DNA from: Salinigranum halophilum
GTDB taxonomy: Archaea; Halobacteriota; Halobacteria; Halobacteriales; Haloferacaceae
Assembly (NCBI RefSeq): GCF_007004735.1
Contig: NZ_SSNL01000005.1
Coordinates: forward strand, 248,001 to 312,000
Direction of reading: 5' to 3'
DNA length: 64,000 bases
How positions within the stretch are numbered: position 1 is the stretch's first letter; each line of letters opens with the position of its first letter. The translations under genes and the position numbers were made by a program. Positions 20,252 through 29,635 of this stretch are shown here, piece after piece. The notes beneath the pieces are model-generated. The model did no database searches and was not told the DNA's origin. It saw nothing but the letters and a program-made list of their open reading frames with translations.

Positions 20252-20728
20252 ATGGTAGTAGAATCCGACACCGCACCGACCTTCACCGCGACGCTCGCGA
20301 ACGGCGACGTCGAGGCGTTCGACCTGGCCGACCACCTCGGCGACGGCCCGGTCGTCCTCGCCTTCTTCCCCGGCGCGTTCACGCCGCCCTGTTCGAACGA
20401 GATGGTCGCGCTGCAGGAGCACCTCGGCGAGTTCGAGGCCGCGGGCGCGACCGTGTTCGGTATCAGTGCCGACTCGGCGTTCTCGCTCAACGCCTTCCGC
20501 GAGGAGCACGACCTCGGGTTCGACCTCGTGAGCGACATGGGCCGGGAGGCCATCGACGCGTACGGGCTGGAGATCGACATCGAGGACCTGGGCCTCCTCG
20601 GCGTCGCGAACCGCGCCGTCTACGTCGTCGACGGCGACGGCACCGTCAGCTACGCGTGGACCACCGACGACCCGACGGTCGAACCCGACTACGAGGAACT
20701 GCTCGCGGCCGTCGAGGCCGCCGCGTAA
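20252..20728 (+). CDS. Peroxiredoxin (AhpC/TSA, BCP/PrxQ-like)
   Basis: 158 residues with a thioredoxin fold. The peroxidatic Cys47 lies in FFPGAFTPPCSNEM, with the usual Thr replaced by Pro just before the Cys (FTPTC/FTSTC in most relatives). It is the only Cys in the protein, so there is no intramolecular resolving Cys and a 1-Cys mechanism with an external thiol is implied. The rest (FGISADSAFSLNAF, NRAVYVVDGDGTV) is standard. It reduces peroxides in the cytosol. A run of seven T (20222-20228) precedes it. Confidence 0.85.
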   Translation: MVVESDTAPTFTATLANGDVEAFDLADHLGDGPVVLAFFPGAFTPPCSNEMVALQEHLGEFEAAGATVFGISADSAFSLNAFREEHDLGFDLVSDMGREAIDAYGLEIDIEDLGLLGVANRAVYVVDGDGTVSYAWTTDDPTVEPDYEELLAAVEAAA

Positions 20729-20868: not shown

Positions 20869-21594
20869 ATGCGACGACGCCGATTCCTCCAGGCGTCCGG
20901 CGCGGTGGCACTCGGTGCCGCTGCCGGATGTCTCGGCGACAGCTCACCGCCACCCCGCAAGTCGAACGCCCTCTCCGACGTCGAACTCCGCACGACAGAC
21001 ACGACAGAAGCACGGGCCGAACTCCGCGTCGACCTGGCCAACGACCCGTGGGTCGTCTCCCGCTACGACAGCGGGTCGTCCGCCTCACTCGACGCCCCGC
21101 TCGCCCTGCTCGGTCGCCTCAGCCCGGTTGGGCGGGCCCGCGGAGCCAAAGGCGGCGGCGGGAGCGGCGGAAGCGGTGCCACCGGACGCGGGACCGGCGG
21201 ATACGCCTCCGCACCACGGACGCACAACGGCTACGCGTGGTACCACGGGACCGACGACAGCGACGACTGGTACGACGACCACGCGGACGAGGTGACGCGC
21301 TACGGTGCGGTGGTCGGTACCGTCGGCTTCGCCGCGCTCGGTCGCAACGCCCAGTACGTCGACGACCCGCCGGCCCCGGGGGCGGTCACCTGGGACCGGA
21401 CCGTCGAGGACCCCGCGAACGAACTCGGCTTTCAGGCCGACGGCGAGGGCTGGTATCGAGTCGGTGCCGAACTCGTCGGCGAACGGGTCGACCACTCGTT
21501 CGGCTGGGCCAGCGTCGACGTCCGCGTCGAGGAGGACACCCTCGGCGGCGGGATGACCATCGAAGAGGAGTGGAAGGTCTCCCCGCGCGTCTGA
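20869..21594 (+). CDS. Tat-exported lipoprotein, unknown function, first of the aminopropyltransferase-like cluster
   Basis: 241 residues. It begins with a twin-arginine signal (MRRRRFLQASGAVALGAAAG) ending in a lipobox (AAGC, Cys at about residue 21), so it should be exported folded and lipid-anchored to the outer face. The mature part has a Gly-rich low-complexity stretch (KGGGGSGGSGATGRG, about 99-113) and a Tyr/Asp-rich loop, then a beta-rich end. I do not recognise a named domain. It lies 39 bases before the membrane aminopropyltransferase-like gene and has its own promoter-like element, so it probably heads that operon. Confidence 0.72.
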   Translation: MRRRRFLQASGAVALGAAAGCLGDSSPPPRKSNALSDVELRTTDTTEARAELRVDLANDPWVVSRYDSGSSASLDAPLALLGRLSPVGRARGAKGGGGSGGSGATGRGTGGYASAPRTHNGYAWYHGTDDSDDWYDDHADEVTRYGAVVGTVGFAALGRNAQYVDDPPAPGAVTWDRTVEDPANELGFQADGEGWYRVGAELVGERVDHSFGWASVDVRVEEDTLGGGMTIEEEWKVSPRV

Positions 21595-21633
21595 CCACGC
21601 TGCTCGTCGGCCACCCCACCCTCACCCCCTCCG

Positions 21634-23388
21634 ATGTCACGCACCGCCCGCACCGAGGTGTTCGCCCTGCTCGCGCTGACGTTCGTCGTCTCGTTCTGTA
21701 GCTTCGCCTACGAGTTCGTCTACTCGGAGTTGTTGACGGTGATGTACGGCGGCACGGTCACCCAGTACGTCATCACCATCGGGCTGTACTTCGTCAGTCT
21801 CGGCGTGGGGGCGGCGCTGTCGGACGACCTCACGGGCGAGCGCGCCTCGAACCTCTTCCGGACCGAGGTGTACCTCGCGCTCGTCGCGCCCGCCGGGTTC
21901 CTGCTCATCGTCGCGCTCAACAGCGTCCGTCTCCCCCAGGCCGTCCCGGCAGAACTCGTCTGGGCCGTCGCGCGGTCGCCCGTCGTCGCCGTCGGCTTCC
22001 TCTCGGGGTTCGAACTGCCGTTGCTCACGCGGATGGTCGACGAGACGGGCGGCGGCTCGGCCGTCCTCCCGCCCGCGGTGACCCACGCCGCAGAGAGCCT
22101 GCATCGAGGAGTCGTGCGAGTGCTCGGCGTCTTCTGGCACGCGGAGCCAGCGACGGACGCCCGGAGCGGCCTGTCGCTCGTGCTGGCGATGGACTACGTC
22201 GGCGGCCTCGCCGGTGCCGTCGTCTACGCGCAGGTGCTCTACCCCGGACTGGGGCTCATTCCGACGGTGTTCGTCCTCGCCCTCCTGAACGGGCTCGCCG
22301 CGCTCGCGCTCCTGGGTGGGTACAGCACTCGGTGGAGCGTCGGCGGAGCGCGGGGACGCCTCGTGAGCCGGGAGTCGGCGACGCTCGTCGTCGTCTGTCT
22401 CCTCGTCACCGCCTCGTGCGGCGTCGCCGTCGCGAACTCGTCGGCCGTCGACCGGGAGCTCTCCGAACTGTACCTCGAACAGCAGGTCGAGAACGACTAC
22501 CCGCCGGGCGCGATGGACGCGGAGGTGCTCGGCCAGCGGACGACCCCGTACCAGCACGTCGTCGAGTACGAGCGGACCTGGACCGGCGCGGGGCCGAACC
22601 CCCACTTCGCCGGCGAGACGGAGCGCTGTCTCCGTCTCGGTGGTGCCGTCCAGTTGTGCGAGTCGTGGGCCGACCCCTACCACCAGGGGCTCGTCGACGT
22701 GCCGATGTCGCGGTTCGCTCACTCGCCCGAGACCGACGTGCTCGTGATCGGCGGCGGCGATTTCGTCGCCGTCGACGCCCTCCGCGAGTACGACGTCAGC
22801 GTCGACCAGGTCGACCTCGACGCGGCGTTCATGTCCTACGCCAGAGAGGACCGGTTCCTCTCGCGGTGGCACGAGGACGCGTACGAGTACGACCGGCTGA
22901 ACACGACCGTCGACGACGGCTACGCGTTCCTCTCGGAGACGGAGAAACGCTACGACCTCGTCCTCCTCGACATCCCCGGCGCGACGGACGACGACCTCCT
23001 CCCGCTGTACTCGACGGAGTTCTACGGGTCGCTCCGGGACAACCTCTCGCCGGACGGCGTCGTGGCCGTCTGGGTCTACGACGAGAACGCCTACGCCCAG
23101 CACAACAAGGCGTTCGTCAACACCGTCGGCGACGCCGGCTTCACCCAGTACGCCCCCTACTGGGCGTGGGCGGACGTCGACGCCGACGGCACCGAAGAGC
23201 GCGTCGAGCGCTTCTACCTCCTCGCGCCGGGCGACCGGTCCGCGTTCGACGCCGAGGAGGGCACGGCGTACGTCCGCCAGCACCGCGACCGCTACCGTGA
23301 CCTCCGGTGGCGTGAACTCCCCCGGTACAACGGCGTCGAAGTGAACTCCATCTTCGACCCGAACTACGACGTCCTCATCGACACCTGA
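21634..23388 (+). CDS. Membrane-anchored spermidine-synthase-like protein
   Basis: 584 residues in two parts. The first 280 or so carry about seven membrane helices with SFAYEFVYSELLTVMYGGTV and YVITIGLYFVSLGVGAALSD, as in bacterial membrane-bound polyamine aminopropyltransferases. The rest is a Rossmann domain with the nucleotide-binding VLVIGGGDFVAVDAL (about 368-382), VDLD (about 391-394) and LVLLDIPGATDDDLLPLYST (about 442-461). Two key sites differ from classical spermidine synthases: GGGDG is GGGDF, and the catalytic DxxDP-like motif is LDIPGA. The true reaction is therefore uncertain. It is followed by DUF2617-like and other genes with 1-base or overlapping junctions. Confidence 0.75.
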   Translation: MSRTARTEVFALLALTFVVSFCSFAYEFVYSELLTVMYGGTVTQYVITIGLYFVSLGVGAALSDDLTGERASNLFRTEVYLALVAPAGFLLIVALNSVRLPQAVPAELVWAVARSPVVAVGFLSGFELPLLTRMVDETGGGSAVLPPAVTHAAESLHRGVVRVLGVFWHAEPATDARSGLSLVLAMDYVGGLAGAVVYAQVLYPGLGLIPTVFVLALLNGLAALALLGGYSTRWSVGGARGRLVSRESATLVVVCLLVTASCGVAVANSSAVDRELSELYLEQQVENDYPPGAMDAEVLGQRTTPYQHVVEYERTWTGAGPNPHFAGETERCLRLGGAVQLCESWADPYHQGLVDVPMSRFAHSPETDVLVIGGGDFVAVDALREYDVSVDQVDLDAAFMSYAREDRFLSRWHEDAYEYDRLNTTVDDGYAFLSETEKRYDLVLLDIPGATDDDLLPLYSTEFYGSLRDNLSPDGVVAVWVYDENAYAQHNKAFVNTVGDAGFTQYAPYWAWADVDADGTEERVERFYLLAPGDRSAFDAEEGTAYVRQHRDRYRDLRWRELPRYNGVEVNSIFDPNYDVLIDT

Positions 23389-23389
23389 T

Positions 23390-23980
23390 ATGACACCCGC
23401 ACCGACCACCCCAGACAGCACGGACTCCACCGAGACGGCCGACACAGCCGACCCAGCCGACCCAACCGACCCGACCGACACGGCCGAACTACACGTCGCG
23501 TACCCGACGGGGCCACCCGACTTCGCGTCGTTCGACGTGAAGACGCTCACGCCCGGGACGCTCCTCGGCGAACCCTGCACCGTCGCCGTCGTCGGCCAGT
23601 CACACGTCGTCACTGCGCCGGCGCTCGACTACCACGAGGTCTGCTCGTGTCTCTCTCAGCCAGTCGAGACGAGCGAGACCGTCGCGCTCGACGCTGGCGT
23701 CACCGCACAGGTCGAGACAGCAGACGACAGGACCACGCGGGCGACGACCGACCTCTCGGTCCGACCGCTCGCGTCGTTCCCGGGGCCCGACGACGCGACC
23801 ATCGCGTATCGGTTCGGTCCCGACGCGTGGACCACGGTCAGCCTCGCGCCCGACGCGCCACGCTACGAGACGTACCACACCTACCCGGAGCGCGACGTCG
23901 CCGTTCACACGGTGACGCGACTCGCTGGCGGACCGAGCACCGAGCGGTCCGAGCCGTGGGGACAGGGGGCCGACCGATGA
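23390..23980 (+). CDS. DUF2617-like protein
   Basis: 196 residues. The first 35 are a low-complexity leader of DPADPTDPTD-type repeats. The body resembles DUF2617: LLGEPCTVAVVGQSHVV, then LASFPGPDDATIAYRFGPDA, and the C-terminal YETYHTYPERDVAVHTVTRL, the same place where family members have a W/Y-x-T-W/Y-H-x-Y-P block. It has two close Cys residues (CSC, about 84-86). DUF2617 proteins have no known activity; some bacterial genomes have them beside spermidine-synthase-like genes, as here (from memory). It begins 1 base after the aminopropyltransferase-like gene and overlaps the next gene by ATGA. Confidence 0.6.
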   Translation: MTPAPTTPDSTDSTETADTADPADPTDPTDTAELHVAYPTGPPDFASFDVKTLTPGTLLGEPCTVAVVGQSHVVTAPALDYHEVCSCLSQPVETSETVALDAGVTAQVETADDRTTRATTDLSVRPLASFPGPDDATIAYRFGPDAWTTVSLAPDAPRYETYHTYPERDVAVHTVTRLAGGPSTERSEPWGQGADR

Positions 23981-24930
23981 CGGCCGACCGGACCCTCGCT
24001 TCGGAGGGCGACCTGTCGCTCGCCGGGTCGGAGGTACCACCCGTCTCCGTCACCGACACCGCGGACGTGTTCCTCCGGACGGGCGGGGTCGGGGGTGACG
24101 TCCACGTGACCGACGCGGAGTACGTCTTCACCCACCAGTCGCTCGGCCAGACCGCGGGGCCGCCGGAGCCCCAGACCCGGATTCACGGCGACGAGGACGC
24201 CTACGTCGAGCGCGAGGGCGTCGACGGCGACCTGACGCTCGCGGACGTCGCGGACGTGTTCGTCCCGCGAGCGGCCGCCGACGGGACCCTCTCGGTACTC
24301 GGGTCCGAGAACGTCTACTCGGCGACGGCACCCGACCTCGACCCCGACGCGTGCGACGTCGTCAGCCACGGGTGGGAACAGCGCGTCAGAGAGTCGGACC
24401 CGGACACCGGCGTCTACCTGACGGGGGCGGGCCACGACGTCACGGTCGAACAGGTGCGGGGGGACGTCGACGTCTACGTCGTCGGGTGGGGTCACGAGGT
24501 CGAACTCACCGGACGCGGCGCAGCGGTGTCGGTCCACTTCTGCGGCTACGACAACACCGTCAGCGTCGGGCCGTATCTCGAGTCGAGCGTCGAATCGGAC
24601 GCCGGTTTCGACAACGCCGTCGACGAGGCACCGTTCCCGGTCGAGGACCTGATCGAGCAGTCGCGGCGCGAGGCGTGTAAGACGGCCGGCTTCGGCCGCC
24701 ACAGGGTCATCTTCCAGGAACCCGCCTCGGACGAGGAGTGGTGTCGGAACTGCGGCGAACCCGCCGACGCCATCGTCGAGCGCCACCAGATGGAGGCGTT
24801 CTTCTGCTTCTCGTACCCGGTGTGGGTGTACGAGCAGAGCACGAACCCGGCGGTGGAGTGCGAACACTGCTCGCCGAACGCCCACGACCCGTCGCTGACG
24901 AGCCAGGAACGGCGGGAGGTGTTCCGGTGA
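23977..24930 (+). CDS. Beta-rich protein with a C-terminal Cys pair arrangement, unknown function
   Basis: 317 residues, no membrane segment and no signal peptide. The first 220 residues read as short repeated beta strands (VTDTADVFLRTGGVGGDVHV, YVEREGVDGDLTLADVADVF, VSVHFCGYDNTVSVGPYL), suggesting a beta-helix or stacked-strand domain. The last 90 have WCRNCGEPADAI and, about 40 residues later, ECEHC, which could bind one zinc. No named family recognised. It overlaps both neighbours by 4 bases, so all three are translationally coupled. Confidence 0.6.
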   Translation: MTADRTLASEGDLSLAGSEVPPVSVTDTADVFLRTGGVGGDVHVTDAEYVFTHQSLGQTAGPPEPQTRIHGDEDAYVEREGVDGDLTLADVADVFVPRAAADGTLSVLGSENVYSATAPDLDPDACDVVSHGWEQRVRESDPDTGVYLTGAGHDVTVEQVRGDVDVYVVGWGHEVELTGRGAAVSVHFCGYDNTVSVGPYLESSVESDAGFDNAVDEAPFPVEDLIEQSRREACKTAGFGRHRVIFQEPASDEEWCRNCGEPADAIVERHQMEAFFCFSYPVWVYEQSTNPAVECEHCSPNAHDPSLTSQERREVFR

Positions 24931-26369
24931 CCGGCGAGCAACGACCGCCCGACGCTGTCACGCCCACCAGACGCGCGGTCCTCGCGGCGGTCGGTGCGGG
25001 CGTCGCCAGCACGGGTCTGACCGGGGCGGGCCGCGTCCGCGCACAGACCGACACCGCCGCCTCGACACCAGCTTCGACCGCCGACCCGCCCTCGGCCGGC
25101 TGGACTCAGCGGTACGCGGCCGACAGCGCGCCGGCGCTGTTCCGGACCATCGTTCCGGCTGGCGACGGCTACGTGCTCGGAGGGGTCACGGGGGGACACG
25201 ACGACCTGCGCGGCCTCGCCGTTCGGACGGACGCGCAGGGCCGCACCCGCTGGCGACGCACGTACGGTGCGGTGAAGTCGGGGGTCGCCGCGGGCACGCC
25301 CCACGCCGAGGGCGGCGTCGTCCTCGCCGGGGCGACCAACCTCGACGACGCCAGCCCGTTCGCCGAGACACCGCCCTCGGCCGACCCCTGGGTTCTCCGG
25401 GTCGACGAGGGAGGCGACGTCGGATGGGCCCGGACGCTCCAGCCGACCGCCGCAGCCGGCCAGGTCGACGCGCTCGTCGGTGTCGACGACGGCTACCTCG
25501 TCGCCGGGCGACGCCGCGAGCGACGGGGGACGCCTCCCCGACCGTGGGTGGCGCACCTCTCGCCGGCCGGTCACCGCCGCTGGGCGGCCACGCTCGGACG
25601 CGAGGGGACACAGGGCGCTCTGACCGCCGTCGCCGCGGACGACGACAGCTGGTACGTCGGCGGGTCGACGTCACCGGCCGACGACGACAGCCAGCCGTCG
25701 GGCGCTGCCGAGACGGCCCTCGTCGCCCGACTCGACACCGACGGGACGGCCCGGTGGCGGCGGTCGCTCGGCGGGCCGGGTGGGAGCCGTCTCGAGTGTC
25801 TCCACGCGGACGCGTCGGGCGTTGTCGCCGTCGGCAACCGGGGCTTCGCCGCCGACGACGACGGTCGGGGGTGGCACCTCCGTCTCGACGCCGACGGCGA
25901 CCGCACGTGGGAGCGGACTCACTCGCGCGGTCCCTGGAACTGGCTCACCGGACTCGCCCCGGCAGACGACGCGGGCGAGGACGGATACCTCCTCGTCGGG
26001 ACGCGAGAGCGCCCGCCCGAGGGCGACGACCCGAACGGGCGCCGGGGCGCCTGGGTCCTCCGCACCGGCCCCGCCGGCGAGGTGCGCTGGGCGACCACCT
26101 ACTTCGACGGCGACTGGAGTCACGGCGAGACGGTCCACAGCCTCGACGGGGGCCTCCTCGTCGCGGGGTCGACCGAGACCGACGCCGGGCGGGCGGCGTG
26201 GCTCCTCGGCATCGGCGACGTCCCGGCCGCCGACACCGCATCCGGCGTGGCTCGTCACCTCGAGTCGCTCGCACGGGCCGTCCCGCCGACGGCGGACGAC
26301 GTCGGTCTCGGCGTCCTCGTCGGGGCCGGTGCGGTCGTGCTGGCGCGGCGGCTACGTACGGCGCGGTGA
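24927..26369 (+). CDS. Exported repeat (beta-propeller-like) protein with C-terminal membrane anchor
   Basis: 480 residues starting at a GTG that overlaps the previous stop (GTGA). An N-terminal Tat-type signal has TRRAVLAAVGAGVAS. The body is built of about six repeats of some 50-60 residues: GGYVLGGVTxG, then LAVRTDAQGRTRWRRTYG, then ALVARLDTDGTARWRRSLGG, VLRTGPAGEVRWATTY and so on. This is the delta-60/PQQ-like blade pattern with the R-W-x-x-x-x-G motif. One hydrophobic helix at the C-terminus (LGVLVGAGAVVLARRL) should anchor it. It would sit on the cell surface, perhaps as a binding scaffold. Confidence 0.7.
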   Translation: MTGEQRPPDAVTPTRRAVLAAVGAGVASTGLTGAGRVRAQTDTAASTPASTADPPSAGWTQRYAADSAPALFRTIVPAGDGYVLGGVTGGHDDLRGLAVRTDAQGRTRWRRTYGAVKSGVAAGTPHAEGGVVLAGATNLDDASPFAETPPSADPWVLRVDEGGDVGWARTLQPTAAAGQVDALVGVDDGYLVAGRRRERRGTPPRPWVAHLSPAGHRRWAATLGREGTQGALTAVAADDDSWYVGGSTSPADDDSQPSGAAETALVARLDTDGTARWRRSLGGPGGSRLECLHADASGVVAVGNRGFAADDDGRGWHLRLDADGDRTWERTHSRGPWNWLTGLAPADDAGEDGYLLVGTRERPPEGDDPNGRRGAWVLRTGPAGEVRWATTYFDGDWSHGETVHSLDGGLLVAGSTETDAGRAAWLLGIGDVPAADTASGVARHLESLARAVPPTADDVGLGVLVGAGAVVLARRLRTAR

Positions 26370-26465
26370 CACGGCCGCCGCCCACACCCCGACATTGATG
26401 TACAGTGCGGGTGAACTGTCGTGAAATCCGGCCATTCGGCGCGAACGAGACCCAGCCCCTCCACC

Positions 26466-28799
26466 ATGTCACAGCAGTCAACGGAACGGAACGGAAGCAT
26501 CGGCGCGGCGACGCAGTGCAGCTACACGTTCGACCCCGCCCGTCGGACGGACGCCAGCCTGCGGACGACGTGGGAGTGCCCACACCCCGCCCACGAGGAG
26601 AGCGACTACTGCGTCTTCCACATGTCCGCCGACGAGCGGGCCGCCCACGACGTCGATTCGGACGACGTGGCCGAGCGCCTCCTCGACAACCTCGCGGTCG
26701 ACGACCCGCGACGGAACGAGTACGTCGGCGCGAGCCTGCCACACCTGTCGCTCACCTATCGGCAGGTCGACGGCGACACGAACCACGTCCTCAACTTCCA
26801 GCACGCCGAAATCGAGGGAATCGACCTGACCCACGGCCGACTCGACCAGGGGCTGAACCTCCGGGAGGCCACGGTGAGGCGGCTGACGCTCGAGGACGCG
26901 ACGGTCACCGGCGACGTCGACGTGAGCGACGCCGTCGTCGAGCAGTTCGAGGCGTCGGAGGGGACGTTCCGCGAGGACGTCGACTTCAGCGGCGTGACGT
27001 TCACCGGGAGCGTCGACTGCACCGAGACGCGGTTCGACGAGGGGGCCGCCTTCGACGGGGCGACGTTCGAGGGTGTCGCCGACTTCCGGAACGTCTCGTC
27101 GGCGGGTGACAGTCACGTCCTCGACGACCACCTCACGTTCGCGGCGGCGACCTTTCACGACGCCGCGAAGTTCAGACAGGCCTCGCTCGGCTACGTCAGC
27201 TTCGCCGAGGCGACGTTCGAGGCGAGCACGGACTTCGAGCACGTCGACTTCGAGGGCGACACGCGGTTCGACGGGGCCACGTTCGAGCGCATCGCGGACT
27301 TCGACGAGGCGCGCTTCGACCACGACGCGAGCTTCACCGGCACGCAGTTCAGACGGCTCGCGGAGTTCCGTGGCGTCCGGTTCGACGGCGGGAGCCGGAC
27401 CGCGAGCGACGACGTGACGTTCGAGAACGCGGTCTTCGAGGACGAGGCCGACTTCAAACTCGCGACCTTCCGCTTTGCGGACTTCAAGCGGGCCGAGTGC
27501 CGCGGCGAACTCAACTTCGACAGGGCGGTGTTCCGCGCGCGAGCGGACTGTCACGACCTCGCGGTCGCCGGCGTCACGAACCTCGAACGGACGACGTTCG
27601 AAGAGCCCGTCGTCTTCGACGGGTCGACGTTCGGCGGACGTGTCGTGGCGCAGGAGGCGACGTTCGAGGGTGACGCCGACTTCGTCGACGCGCGCTTCAC
27701 GCGCCGCGCGACGTTCGACGAGGCGCGCTTCCGTGCCGACGTCGACTTCGGCGAGGCGACGTTCGAGGCGACGGCGTCGTTCTGCGGCGCGGCGTTCGAG
27801 GGGGAGGCGAACCACGTCGAGCAGAACGCCTCGTTCGACGGCGTCGCGTTCGAGGGCGACGCCGACTTCCGCGACGCACGCTTCACCCGTGGGTCGTTTC
27901 GGGGGACGACGTTCGACGGGACCTGCGACTTCCGGGCGGCGACCTTCCGCGAGGCGGCGGCGTTCGAACTCGTCCCCGGCGGGTCGGACTCGTACGTCGA
28001 CCTGACGGACGCCGTCGTCAGCGGGGGGACCATCGTCGAGGGCGGTGCGCCCGTCCCGTACGACCTGACGCGCGCCACCCTCGGCGACGTTCGGCTGGAG
28101 GGGTCCGGGGACGGCCACGAACTCCTCGACCACTTCCGCTTCTGTCTCACCGAGTTCGACGAGTTCGACTTCAGCGACCACCACGCCTACCTCGAGCGGA
28201 ACGACTGGACCATCCACGACTTCGTCGAGAACGACGCCACCGGGTCGTACGCCGTGCCGCTGACGAACGAGACCATCGAGGAGACCTACCGGAAGGCCCA
28301 AGACAGCGCGAACGCCGTCGGCGACACGCCCGCCAGCCGGGAGTTCGAGTTCAAACGCTACTACTACAACCGCCAGAAGAACGCGGACATCCTCCTCAAC
28401 GAGTACTCGCTCAACGCGTGGGGGCGGGTGAAGAAGACGGCGAGCGTCGGGCTGAACTACGTCATGCAGGTGACCTGTGGGTACGGCAACCGGCTGCCGC
28501 GAATCGCCGCGTGGACCTTCCTGCTCCCCGCGCTGTTCGGCGTGCTGTACGTCCTCGGCGGCCCGTTCCTGACGCAGGCGGGGAGCATAGTCGCGCCGGG
28601 TCCCGACACGACCACGGGAGAGGTCCTGTTCAACGGACTCTACTACAGCTACATCAGCTTCAGCACCATCGGGTACGGCGACATCGGCCCCGTCGGGTGG
28701 GCCGCGAAACTGCTCGCGGCCAGCCAGGGGATGCTGAACGGGCTGTTCTTCACCCTCCTCACCTTCACGCTGTTCAAGCGGGTGCTCGGGGGGAGCTAG
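26466..28799 (+). CDS. Giant pentapeptide-repeat protein fused to a two-helix potassium channel pore
   Basis: 777 residues. An N-terminal Cys/His segment (CSYTF, CPHPAHEESDYCVFH, about 20-60) may bind zinc. From about residue 80 to 550 there is a long array of pentapeptide-type repeats of the form (A/D)xF-x-x-A-x-F-x-x-x-(A/V)-x-F, for example FEGDADFVDARFTRRATF, that should fold as a right-handed quadrilateral beta helix. A helical linker (KAQDSANAVG, FEFKRYYYNRQKNADIL) leads to two membrane helices flanking the selectivity filter TIGYGDIGP (about 733-741). The filter is a classic K+ signature. It is the last gene of the cluster on this strand, 96 bases after the repeat protein. The ATG at 26466 is preferred; a frame extends 15 codons upstream. 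Confidence 0.85.
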   Translation: MSQQSTERNGSIGAATQCSYTFDPARRTDASLRTTWECPHPAHEESDYCVFHMSADERAAHDVDSDDVAERLLDNLAVDDPRRNEYVGASLPHLSLTYRQVDGDTNHVLNFQHAEIEGIDLTHGRLDQGLNLREATVRRLTLEDATVTGDVDVSDAVVEQFEASEGTFREDVDFSGVTFTGSVDCTETRFDEGAAFDGATFEGVADFRNVSSAGDSHVLDDHLTFAAATFHDAAKFRQASLGYVSFAEATFEASTDFEHVDFEGDTRFDGATFERIADFDEARFDHDASFTGTQFRRLAEFRGVRFDGGSRTASDDVTFENAVFEDEADFKLATFRFADFKRAECRGELNFDRAVFRARADCHDLAVAGVTNLERTTFEEPVVFDGSTFGGRVVAQEATFEGDADFVDARFTRRATFDEARFRADVDFGEATFEATASFCGAAFEGEANHVEQNASFDGVAFEGDADFRDARFTRGSFRGTTFDGTCDFRAATFREAAAFELVPGGSDSYVDLTDAVVSGGTIVEGGAPVPYDLTRATLGDVRLEGSGDGHELLDHFRFCLTEFDEFDFSDHHAYLERNDWTIHDFVENDATGSYAVPLTNETIEETYRKAQDSANAVGDTPASREFEFKRYYYNRQKNADILLNEYSLNAWGRVKKTASVGLNYVMQVTCGYGNRLPRIAAWTFLLPALFGVLYVLGGPFLTQAGSIVAPGPDTTTGEVLFNGLYYSYISFSTIGYGDIGPVGWAAKLLAASQGMLNGLFFTLLTFTLFKRVLGGS

Positions 28800-29635
28800 G
28801 CCTGCCCCTCGGCGGCGGCCTGCGCCGCGGCGAGCCACTCGGGGTCGTCGACGGTAGTCGACCCCACCTTCGTCAGCGTGTACTCCCACTCGCCGGTGAT
28901 GGTTTCGCCGTCGTCGGTCTCGCCCTCGAACGACCACGACTCGTAGCGCGGGAGGCCGTCGGCGTCGACGAGCACGGTGTAGTGGAAGTCGGTGACGCGA
29001 ACGTTTCCGGAGCCGGCCCCGGCGTCGACGGCCGACCCGGCCTGGACGAGCTGCGAGCTGGCCTCGGAGAGTTCGTACCGCTCGACGGAGACGCCGTCGT
29101 ACGTCTCGCGCCCCTCGAACGACAGGTCGTCGTTGGCGCTGTACGCGCGAGCCTGCGAGAGGCCGATGGCGGTCGCCAGGGGGTCGGTAGTCTGCTGTTC
29201 GTACGAGAAGTACGTCGGTGAGTCGGCCGGACCCGACCGGACGTACGTGACGCCGTCGGCAGTGAACTGCTGCATCGAGCCGCCGTCGGGCTGGCCGTCG
29301 CGCGTCGACGAGAGGACGGTGAGCGACCGCTCCTCGTCGAGGTTCACGTAGAGCTCGCGGGAGACCTCGGTCTCGACGCCACGCTCGTCGACACCGCGGT
29401 ACGTCCAGGTGGTGGTGAAGCTCCCCGCGTCACGGAGCGCCTGTTCGGCGTCGGTCAGTTCCAGCTCTTCGGTTCCGGACGTGTCCGCCGCGTCCGCATC
29501 CGCCTCGGCATCCCCGTCGTCCGACGGGTCTGCCCCGCTGCTATCGTCGACGGCATCCGACCCACCGCCGCCGAGACAGCCGGCAGACAGCACCAACACC
29601 GCGAGTATCACCGCGACCGTTCTCGTCGAGAACAT
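28796..29635 (-). CDS. Haloarchaeal lipoprotein (DUF7537-like)
   Basis: 279 residues with a lipobox signal (VLVLSAGCLGGGG, Cys at about residue 20), an acidic Ser/Asp-rich linker (about 25-60), and a soluble domain of strands such as SFTTTWTYRG, TYVRSGPADS and YEGRETYDGVSVERYEL. It resembles a large haloarchaeal group of lipoproteins annotated DUF7537 by my recollection; they are likely extracytoplasmic binding or LolA-like carriers, role unknown. Its stop overlaps the stop of the convergent channel gene by 4 bases. An AT-rich TAAAATATCG stretch (near 29661-29670) is a plausible promoter. Confidence 0.7.
   Translation of the reverse strand: MFSTRTVAVILAVLVLSAGCLGGGGSDAVDDSSGADPSDDGDAEADADAADTSGTEELELTDAEQALRDAGSFTTTWTYRGVDERGVETEVSRELYVNLDEERSLTVLSSTRDGQPDGGSMQQFTADGVTYVRSGPADSPTYFSYEQQTTDPLATAIGLSQARAYSANDDLSFEGRETYDGVSVERYELSEASSQLVQAGSAVDAGAGSGNVRVTDFHYTVLVDADGLPRYESWSFEGETDDGETITGEWEYTLTKVGSTTVDDPEWLAAAQAAAEGQA

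Follow-up and report, generated by a model that had tools for sequence, protein, structure and literature searches.

We found a conserved five-gene module in a 64,000-nucleotide stretch of the Salinigranum halophilum genome (647-kb contig NZ_SSNL01000005.1, positions 248,001 to 312,000; this stretch is called the window below, and its own numbering is used). The genes, here called A, B, C, D and F, encode a lipoprotein, a seven-transmembrane (7TM) spermidine-synthase-like protein, a DUF2617 protein, a predicted zinc-ribbon protein and a potassium channel; a sixth gene, E, lies between D and F. We propose, with a probability of roughly 0.55, that the five form a haloarchaeal envelope module working on decarboxylated S-adenosylmethionine (dcAdoMet), in which C would make this donor and B would aminopropylate an acceptor that is not a polyamine. 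The general kind is known from bacteria, where a membrane aminopropyltransferase is accompanied by donor-making and envelope partners (PMC11237479; Li et al. 2019, cited there); what is new is the five-gene set of haloarchaea, with its precise membership, and the likeness of DUF2617 to S-adenosylmethionine decarboxylase (AdoMetDC).

Conservation of the gene set

Co-occurrence was surveyed in 292 haloarchaeal genomes. Full-length B was found in 43. Strong homologues of A occur in exactly these genomes and once more as an orphan copy, and strong homologues of D in the 43 and in one remnant; F is present in 43/43, on a different contig in two. We retrieved 40 neighbourhoods: A, B, C and D are together in every one (with D 8.5 kb away in one case), F is with them in 38, and C adjoins B wherever the contig permits. 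An earlier note on this DNA had proposed a conserved cluster, and these counts bear it out. Among plasmids, the identical 12 haloarchaeal records hold B, C and D. Around the 40 loci no further member was found beyond clade-local synteny.

Arrangement was examined at 57 named loci; their genera, about two dozen, include Haloferax, Halorussus, Haloarcula, Halorientalis, Natrinema, Natrialba, Halosimplex and Haloquadratum. The order A-B-C-D-F is the most frequent (19 loci), followed by one with D divergent ahead of A-B-C-F (10), A-B-C-D with F not close by (8), A-B-C-F-D (7) and A-B-C facing D-F (7), with a few more. Gene order thus takes five or more forms, yet the genes have stayed together, and such shuffling with company kept speaks strongly for a functional unit. 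A, B, C, D and F are a conserved haloarchaeal module. Haloferax volcanii gave a DUF2617 match in a control search; the module locus was surveyed in its close Haloferax relatives.

Several loci depart from the full set. The two genomes with F on another contig carry it intact (62%; locus L104, 8513-10852, genome G211, and L105, 8080-10419, G113), so retention of the channel does not require linkage. An orphan A, about 40% identical, stands with no ortholog of B, C, D or F nearby (L102, 14295-14939, G230), and a relative of the H. volcanii protein HVO_0255 is encoded some 12 kb away. An intact D (49%) next to a broken A, at a locus where B, C and F are missing, resembles a decaying module (L103, 9040-10556, G259), and a Haloferax genome with the full module has a second, fragmentary A by a contig end (L110, 8603-10040, G155). 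In clusters of the Halorientalis/Halomicrobium type (L151, L152, L154, L155, L158, L160 and L168), D is without most of its N-terminal solenoid (about 200 residues), and D-F converge on A-B-C.

DUF2617 and S-adenosylmethionine decarboxylase

Protein C (23390-23980, + strand) matches PF10936 (DUF2617) at 2.8e-6, with 27.9 bits over a curated cut-off of 22.3, and all of its homologues match the family at E <= 0.1 (41/41); the protein that had been called DUF2617-like is true DUF2617 by profile. The family has been described as a predicted beta-sandwich enzyme with two conserved histidines and conserved acidic residues, with no link to AdoMetDC (PMC11237479), and C fits this description through H72 and E83 (each 41/41) and H163 and E167 (each 40/40). 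S71 and C87 are likewise conserved in 41/41, and F142 and T148 in 40/41. No AdoMetDC link of DUF2617 was found in the literature searched, which was largely without subscription papers. A PDB sequence search with the DUF2617 profile gave no match, and bacterial DUF2617 was not found on plasmids or viral contigs.

By predicted fold and by motifs, DUF2617 looks like a divergent AdoMetDC homologue. The AlphaFold2 model of C, made from the haloarchaeal alignment, is confident and all-beta (mean predicted local distance difference test score, pLDDT, 86.9; core above 90) and has the two facing antiparallel sheets of AdoMetDC, the flanking helices being absent. When the Foldseek candidates for this model were aligned with VIA-align, the top five rows were all AdoMetDC (Z 8.1-6.0) and the next, unrelated structures scored 4.0 or less. 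The best rows were human AdoMetDC 1jl0 (Z 8.1 over 126 residues, 3.2 Å) and 1msv (8.0), with the T. brucei enzyme at 6.1-6.0. Where the mature alpha chain of the human enzyme was aligned, the rows begin at model residue 72 and chain residue 69, so that S71 would fall on the pyruvoyl serine, Ser68.

Profiles pointed the same way. An AdoMetDC profile built from ten class-1b sequences was run against more than 3,000 open reading frames (ORFs), and the top six were DUF2617 proteins. The alignment places 'FxPxxTxxx...HTYPE' opposite 'FxPxGxTxxx...HTWPE' (motifs FxPxxT and HTxPE), and in C of Haloquadratum 'IVGESHAVSVPTLPFYEIFSC' is aligned with 'liaESHisiHTwPE..vdiftC' of the profile. In hhalign DUF2617 scored 35.6 against the AdoMetDC profile, compared with a maximum of 22.3 for 200 column shuffles, 14.4 for the reversed profile and 14.2 or less for the other families of the cluster. 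The AdoMetDC catalytic set of pyruvoyl serine, catalytic cysteine, processing histidine and ribose-binding glutamate is matched by alignment with S71, C87, H163 and E167.

In class 2, the fused eukaryotic AdoMetDC, the catalytic residues are divided complementarily between the two halves. A division of this kind appears in C, whose N-half keeps the Ser and Cys and whose C-half keeps the Phe, Thr, His and Glu. C resembles the eukaryote-type enzyme in predicted fold and in its split catalytic residues; it differs in length (about 150 residues against about 330), in having no long helices and in showing no significant overall sequence identity.

The membrane aminopropyltransferase-like protein and its donor

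Protein B (21634-23388, + strand) has seven hydrophobic segments and the aminopropyltransferase domain PF01564 (1.1e-16), which upholds its assignment as a seven-helix plus spermidine-synthase-like protein. The top PDB matches are the Thermus aminopropyltransferase (3anx/1uir, 4e-22). Q340, Y349, H350, GGGD373-376, D394, D396 and D446 are invariant; thus the dcAdoMet-binding acid of GGG(D/E), D376, and the Q and YH positions are kept in all copies of B. The second Asp of the DxxDP polyamine (putrescine) site is replaced (DIPGA-type), D446 being retained, and for loss of this Asp we do not class B as a spermidine synthase. The earlier note read the motifs GGGDF and LDIPGA as altered, hinting at a new product or a sensor. 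A non-canonical enzyme is indeed indicated, but GGGD is no loss, since it keeps the dcAdoMet acid; with only the second Asp of DxxDP gone, a change of acceptor is more likely than a role as a sensor. Phages carried no close relative of B.

B is of the type of HVO_B0357 of H. volcanii, for which a GGGD(W/Y) motif is given in PMC6267482. The two share this GGGD motif, the seven transmembrane segments and a non-conserved putrescine site (PMC5178350, PMC6267482). A widespread second haloarchaeal 7TM homologue, of the HVO_0255 type, lies outside the module and, unlike B, is without the acid: all 19 of the 19 sampled have GGGG, with H/T at the Q/H positions. The accessible portions of the HVO_B0357 and HVO_0255 accounts (PMC5178350, PMC6267482) do not discuss gene neighbourhood or DUF2617. 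In bacteria, 7TM-spermidine-synthase genes frequently adjoin speD, and the relatives beside speD have Q, YH and GGGD as in B, so that within our sample the donor site is kept wherever there is a DUF2617 or speD partner.

Two bacterial loci may be recorded here. A metagenome-assembled genome of Dehalococcoidales has speD flanked on both sides by 7TM-spermidine-synthase genes (L177, 8766-11821). Thalassobacillus has an apparent PspA-type operon, its genes named by eye (DUF4178-like, PspA-like, lipoprotein-like, DUF350-like and 7TM-spermidine-synthase), with no speD within 10 kb (L175, 7435-11500).

The positive loops of B put its N-terminus on the inside, which would leave the catalytic domain on the outside. 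This crude method of hydropathy and positive loops suggests an outward-facing enzyme. An invariant pair in the first hairpin of the catalytic domain, Cys332 and Cys342, which neither the bacterial relatives nor the paralogues in the comparison possess, fits that orientation.

We consider it unlikely that B, in the manner of fungal NHMT, uses S-adenosylmethionine (AdoMet) to methylate exported proteins or lipids, with C a non-catalytic AdoMet-binding or regulatory protein. NHMT does have the same 7TM plus spermidine-synthase-like architecture and acts as a methyltransferase on exported proteins (PMC10349129), and no module carrier has a canonical AdoMetDC. However, NHMT has lost the acid of GxG(D/E)G, whereas every copy of B retains it as D376, together with Q340 and H350, and the acid-less haloarchaeal paralogues are those outside the module; in C, conservation of the Ser, Cys, His and Glu speaks for a catalytic and against a regulatory part.

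An aminopropyltransferase requires a donor. Canonical AdoMetDC (PF02675) was found in 2 of the 292 haloarchaea, neither of which has the module; one of the two carriers, Halobaculum rubrum, has a plasmid with canonical speD and a soluble speE, with a YkgJ-like protein encoded between them (L240, 4990-6768). According to Prunetti et al. (2016; PMC5178350), AdoMetDC is in no sequenced halophile, the source of dcAdoMet and the roles of SpeE homologues are left open, and the polyamines of H. volcanii are agmatine, made by a different and essential arginine decarboxylase, and cadaverine, with no spermidine. DUF2617 next to a SpeE-like gene may be the missing dcAdoMet source in halophiles, and is a concrete candidate answer to the donor-enzyme question of that study. 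Given its AdoMetDC-like predicted fold and motifs, C probably supplies the donor of B and is not a mere accessory.

SpeD homologues have repeatedly been turned into L-arginine or L-ornithine decarboxylases (PMC10407285), and C might likewise decarboxylate another substrate, such as arginine or ornithine, with B using its product or some other donor. We find this quite improbable, since the separate arginine decarboxylase already accounts for agmatine in H. volcanii (PMC5178350) and C is strictly paired with B, whose kept residues are those for dcAdoMet.

Partner proteins

Protein A (20869-21594, + strand; 241 residues) founds a new conserved family. The twin arginines R3 R4, G20 and the lipobox cysteine C21, W195, R197, W213 and W235 are invariant in 40-46 homologues, so the earlier description as a lipoprotein of the twin-arginine translocation (Tat) pathway holds; by this signal A is a surface lipoprotein. 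TAT_signal is matched in 6/46 members, and no Pfam family otherwise.

Protein D (23977-24930, + strand) is predicted to be cytosolic. Its AlphaFold2 model (pLDDT 94.1) consists of a beta-solenoid (residues ~1-220) and a C-terminal zinc ribbon, and the zinc site CxxCG...ECxxC that had been noted as possible (C256, C259, C295, C298) proved invariant across homologues. A fold search gave generic beta-helix matches only (Z 7-9.6 over 122-219 residues), with no function indicated; DUF3060 is weak in 34/36, zinc-ribbon families are also weak, and no Pfam family was assigned. For A or D an identity as DUF4247, DUF350 or PspA found no Pfam support and was rejected. In Tritonibacter, ORFs with CxxC pairs adjoin the 7TM-spermidine-synthase gene.

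Protein F (26466, or 26421, to 28799, + strand) is, as the earlier note had it, a pentapeptide-repeat potassium channel. It has a long N-terminal solenoid matching Pentapeptide_3 (PF13576, 4.6e-58, 10 stretches), which is presumably cytosolic, and a channel domain of two transmembrane segments (Ion_trans_2, PF07885, 1.5e-8) with a TIGYGD filter.

Proposed mechanism and relation to bacterial operons

In the mechanism that we propose, C would be a single-chain, stripped-down AdoMetDC homologue, with S71 (at the 'ESH' position) and C87 in its N-half and F142, T148, H163 and E167 in its C-half, decarboxylating AdoMet to dcAdoMet or a close analogue. B would then move the aminopropyl group onto a membrane or surface acceptor, not a free polyamine but probably the headgroup of a lipid or a protein exported to the membrane. 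A would be the surface lipoprotein of the system, assisting or sensing; D, with its zinc ribbon, could serve in the cytosol as a scaffold or sensor; and F may link K+ flux to the state of the system.

Several observations count against this mechanism. The AdoMetDC families are matched weakly, PF02675 by 3/41 DUF2617 proteins (best E 0.0011) and PF01536 by 1/41 (0.033), all below the Pfam cut-offs, for which reason we call C an AdoMetDC-like homologue and not a member of the AdoMetDC family. A Foldseek search with the model of C gave no match at E <= 0.001; the model is without long helices, unlike AdoMetDC; the residue preceding S71 is variable, being Glu in 12/41; and the DUF2617 profile, set against an approximate human AdoMetDC sequence, aligned YxTxHxxPE at noise level, a result not used as evidence. 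F is unlinked to A-B-C-D in two genomes, and the functions of D and F are guessed from folds. An H. volcanii strain lacking HVO_B0357 showed no phenotype in the conditions that were tried (PMC5178350).

If DUF2617 were no AdoMetDC homologue, its likeness being chance or convergence, the module might sense membrane stress, its aminopropyltransferase domain being dead; the sub-cut-off Pfam scores, the missing helices and the Foldseek result, non-significant alone, count in favour. We regard this as improbable, because three independent lines agree, namely sequence motifs in each half, a structural match that stands clear of the background, and the shuffle control, and because the invariant donor-site residues of B are unexpected of a dead enzyme.

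A wider version of the aminopropylation mechanism is put forward tentatively, as possible more than probable. DUF2617 would be a minimal AdoMetDC of a polyamine-independent pathway, its dcAdoMet being exported or presented to an outward-facing B that adds positively charged aminopropyl groups to haloarchaeal lipids or surface proteins, and the read-out would be gating of the K+ channel. The DUF2617 operons of actinobacteria would follow the same logic.

Li et al. are said to have described, in 2019 (Biochem J 476:2579), clusters of AdoMetDC with MFS-spermidine-synthase fusions, the decarboxylase being a canonical speD. As here, a donor-making decarboxylase stands by a membrane aminopropyltransferase in cells that do not have to make spermidine; theirs is canonical speD, where the haloarchaeal one would be DUF2617.

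Bacterial operons with DUF2617, DUF350 and 7TM-spermidine-synthase genes were listed by Ravi et al. (2024; PMC11237479), and the suggestion that the cluster is an archaeal relative of these with new partners agrees with their operons. The PspA/CesT-Tir operons, with a 7TM-spermidine-synthase fusion, DUF350 and DUF4178, and their DUF4247/DUF2617 variants have, as the module does, a 7TM spermidine-synthase-like enzyme and a lipoprotein. They also have a beta-rich, predicted-cytosolic DUF4178, whose role may be that of D in haloarchaea; D resembles in kind the zinc-ribbon and beta-rich DUF4178-type proteins, by analogy and not homology. A K+ channel occurs in one polyamine-linked bacterial group and DUF2617 in another. 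PspA, DUF350, DUF4178, DUF4247 and speD are not among the genes conserved at module loci, and the families or fusions represented by A, D and F are new. The idea of an undescribed system stands in part: the bacterial operons were already listed (PMC11237479), but neither the haloarchaeal gene set nor the link of DUF2617 to AdoMetDC was found in the literature searched.

The module suggests that the cell envelope is chemically modified in a way not yet described. If DUF2617 does make the donor, a function would be given to this family, which is also found in actinobacteria, a minimal form would be added to the AdoMetDC superfamily, and archaea would have a new envelope chemistry.

Locus layout and flanking genes

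In the window the ORFs A to F follow one another on the + strand, which confirms the row of six genes first noticed. Three junctions (B/C, C/D and D/E), not four as counted before, overlap or leave no more than 1 base between the genes; the A/B gap is 39 bases and the E/F gap 51-96 bases.

Gene E (24927-26369, + strand) encodes a secreted protein (RR signal), probably a beta-propeller with a C-terminal anchor, with a weak match to DUF5122. No homologue was found in the 40 other neighbourhoods, and a copy 63-65% identical is in the same place in congener G347, which indicates a genus-level insertion; this surface repeat protein, once counted in the cluster, was accordingly rejected as a member of the module. 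The whole locus A-B-C-D-E-F of G347 matches the window, B being 85% identical, and the cluster is absent from two other congeners. Bordering the module are two genes whose positions are kept in G347, not in other genera: those for an AhpC/TSA peroxiredoxin (20252-20728, + strand) and a DUF7537 lipoprotein (28796-29635, - strand).

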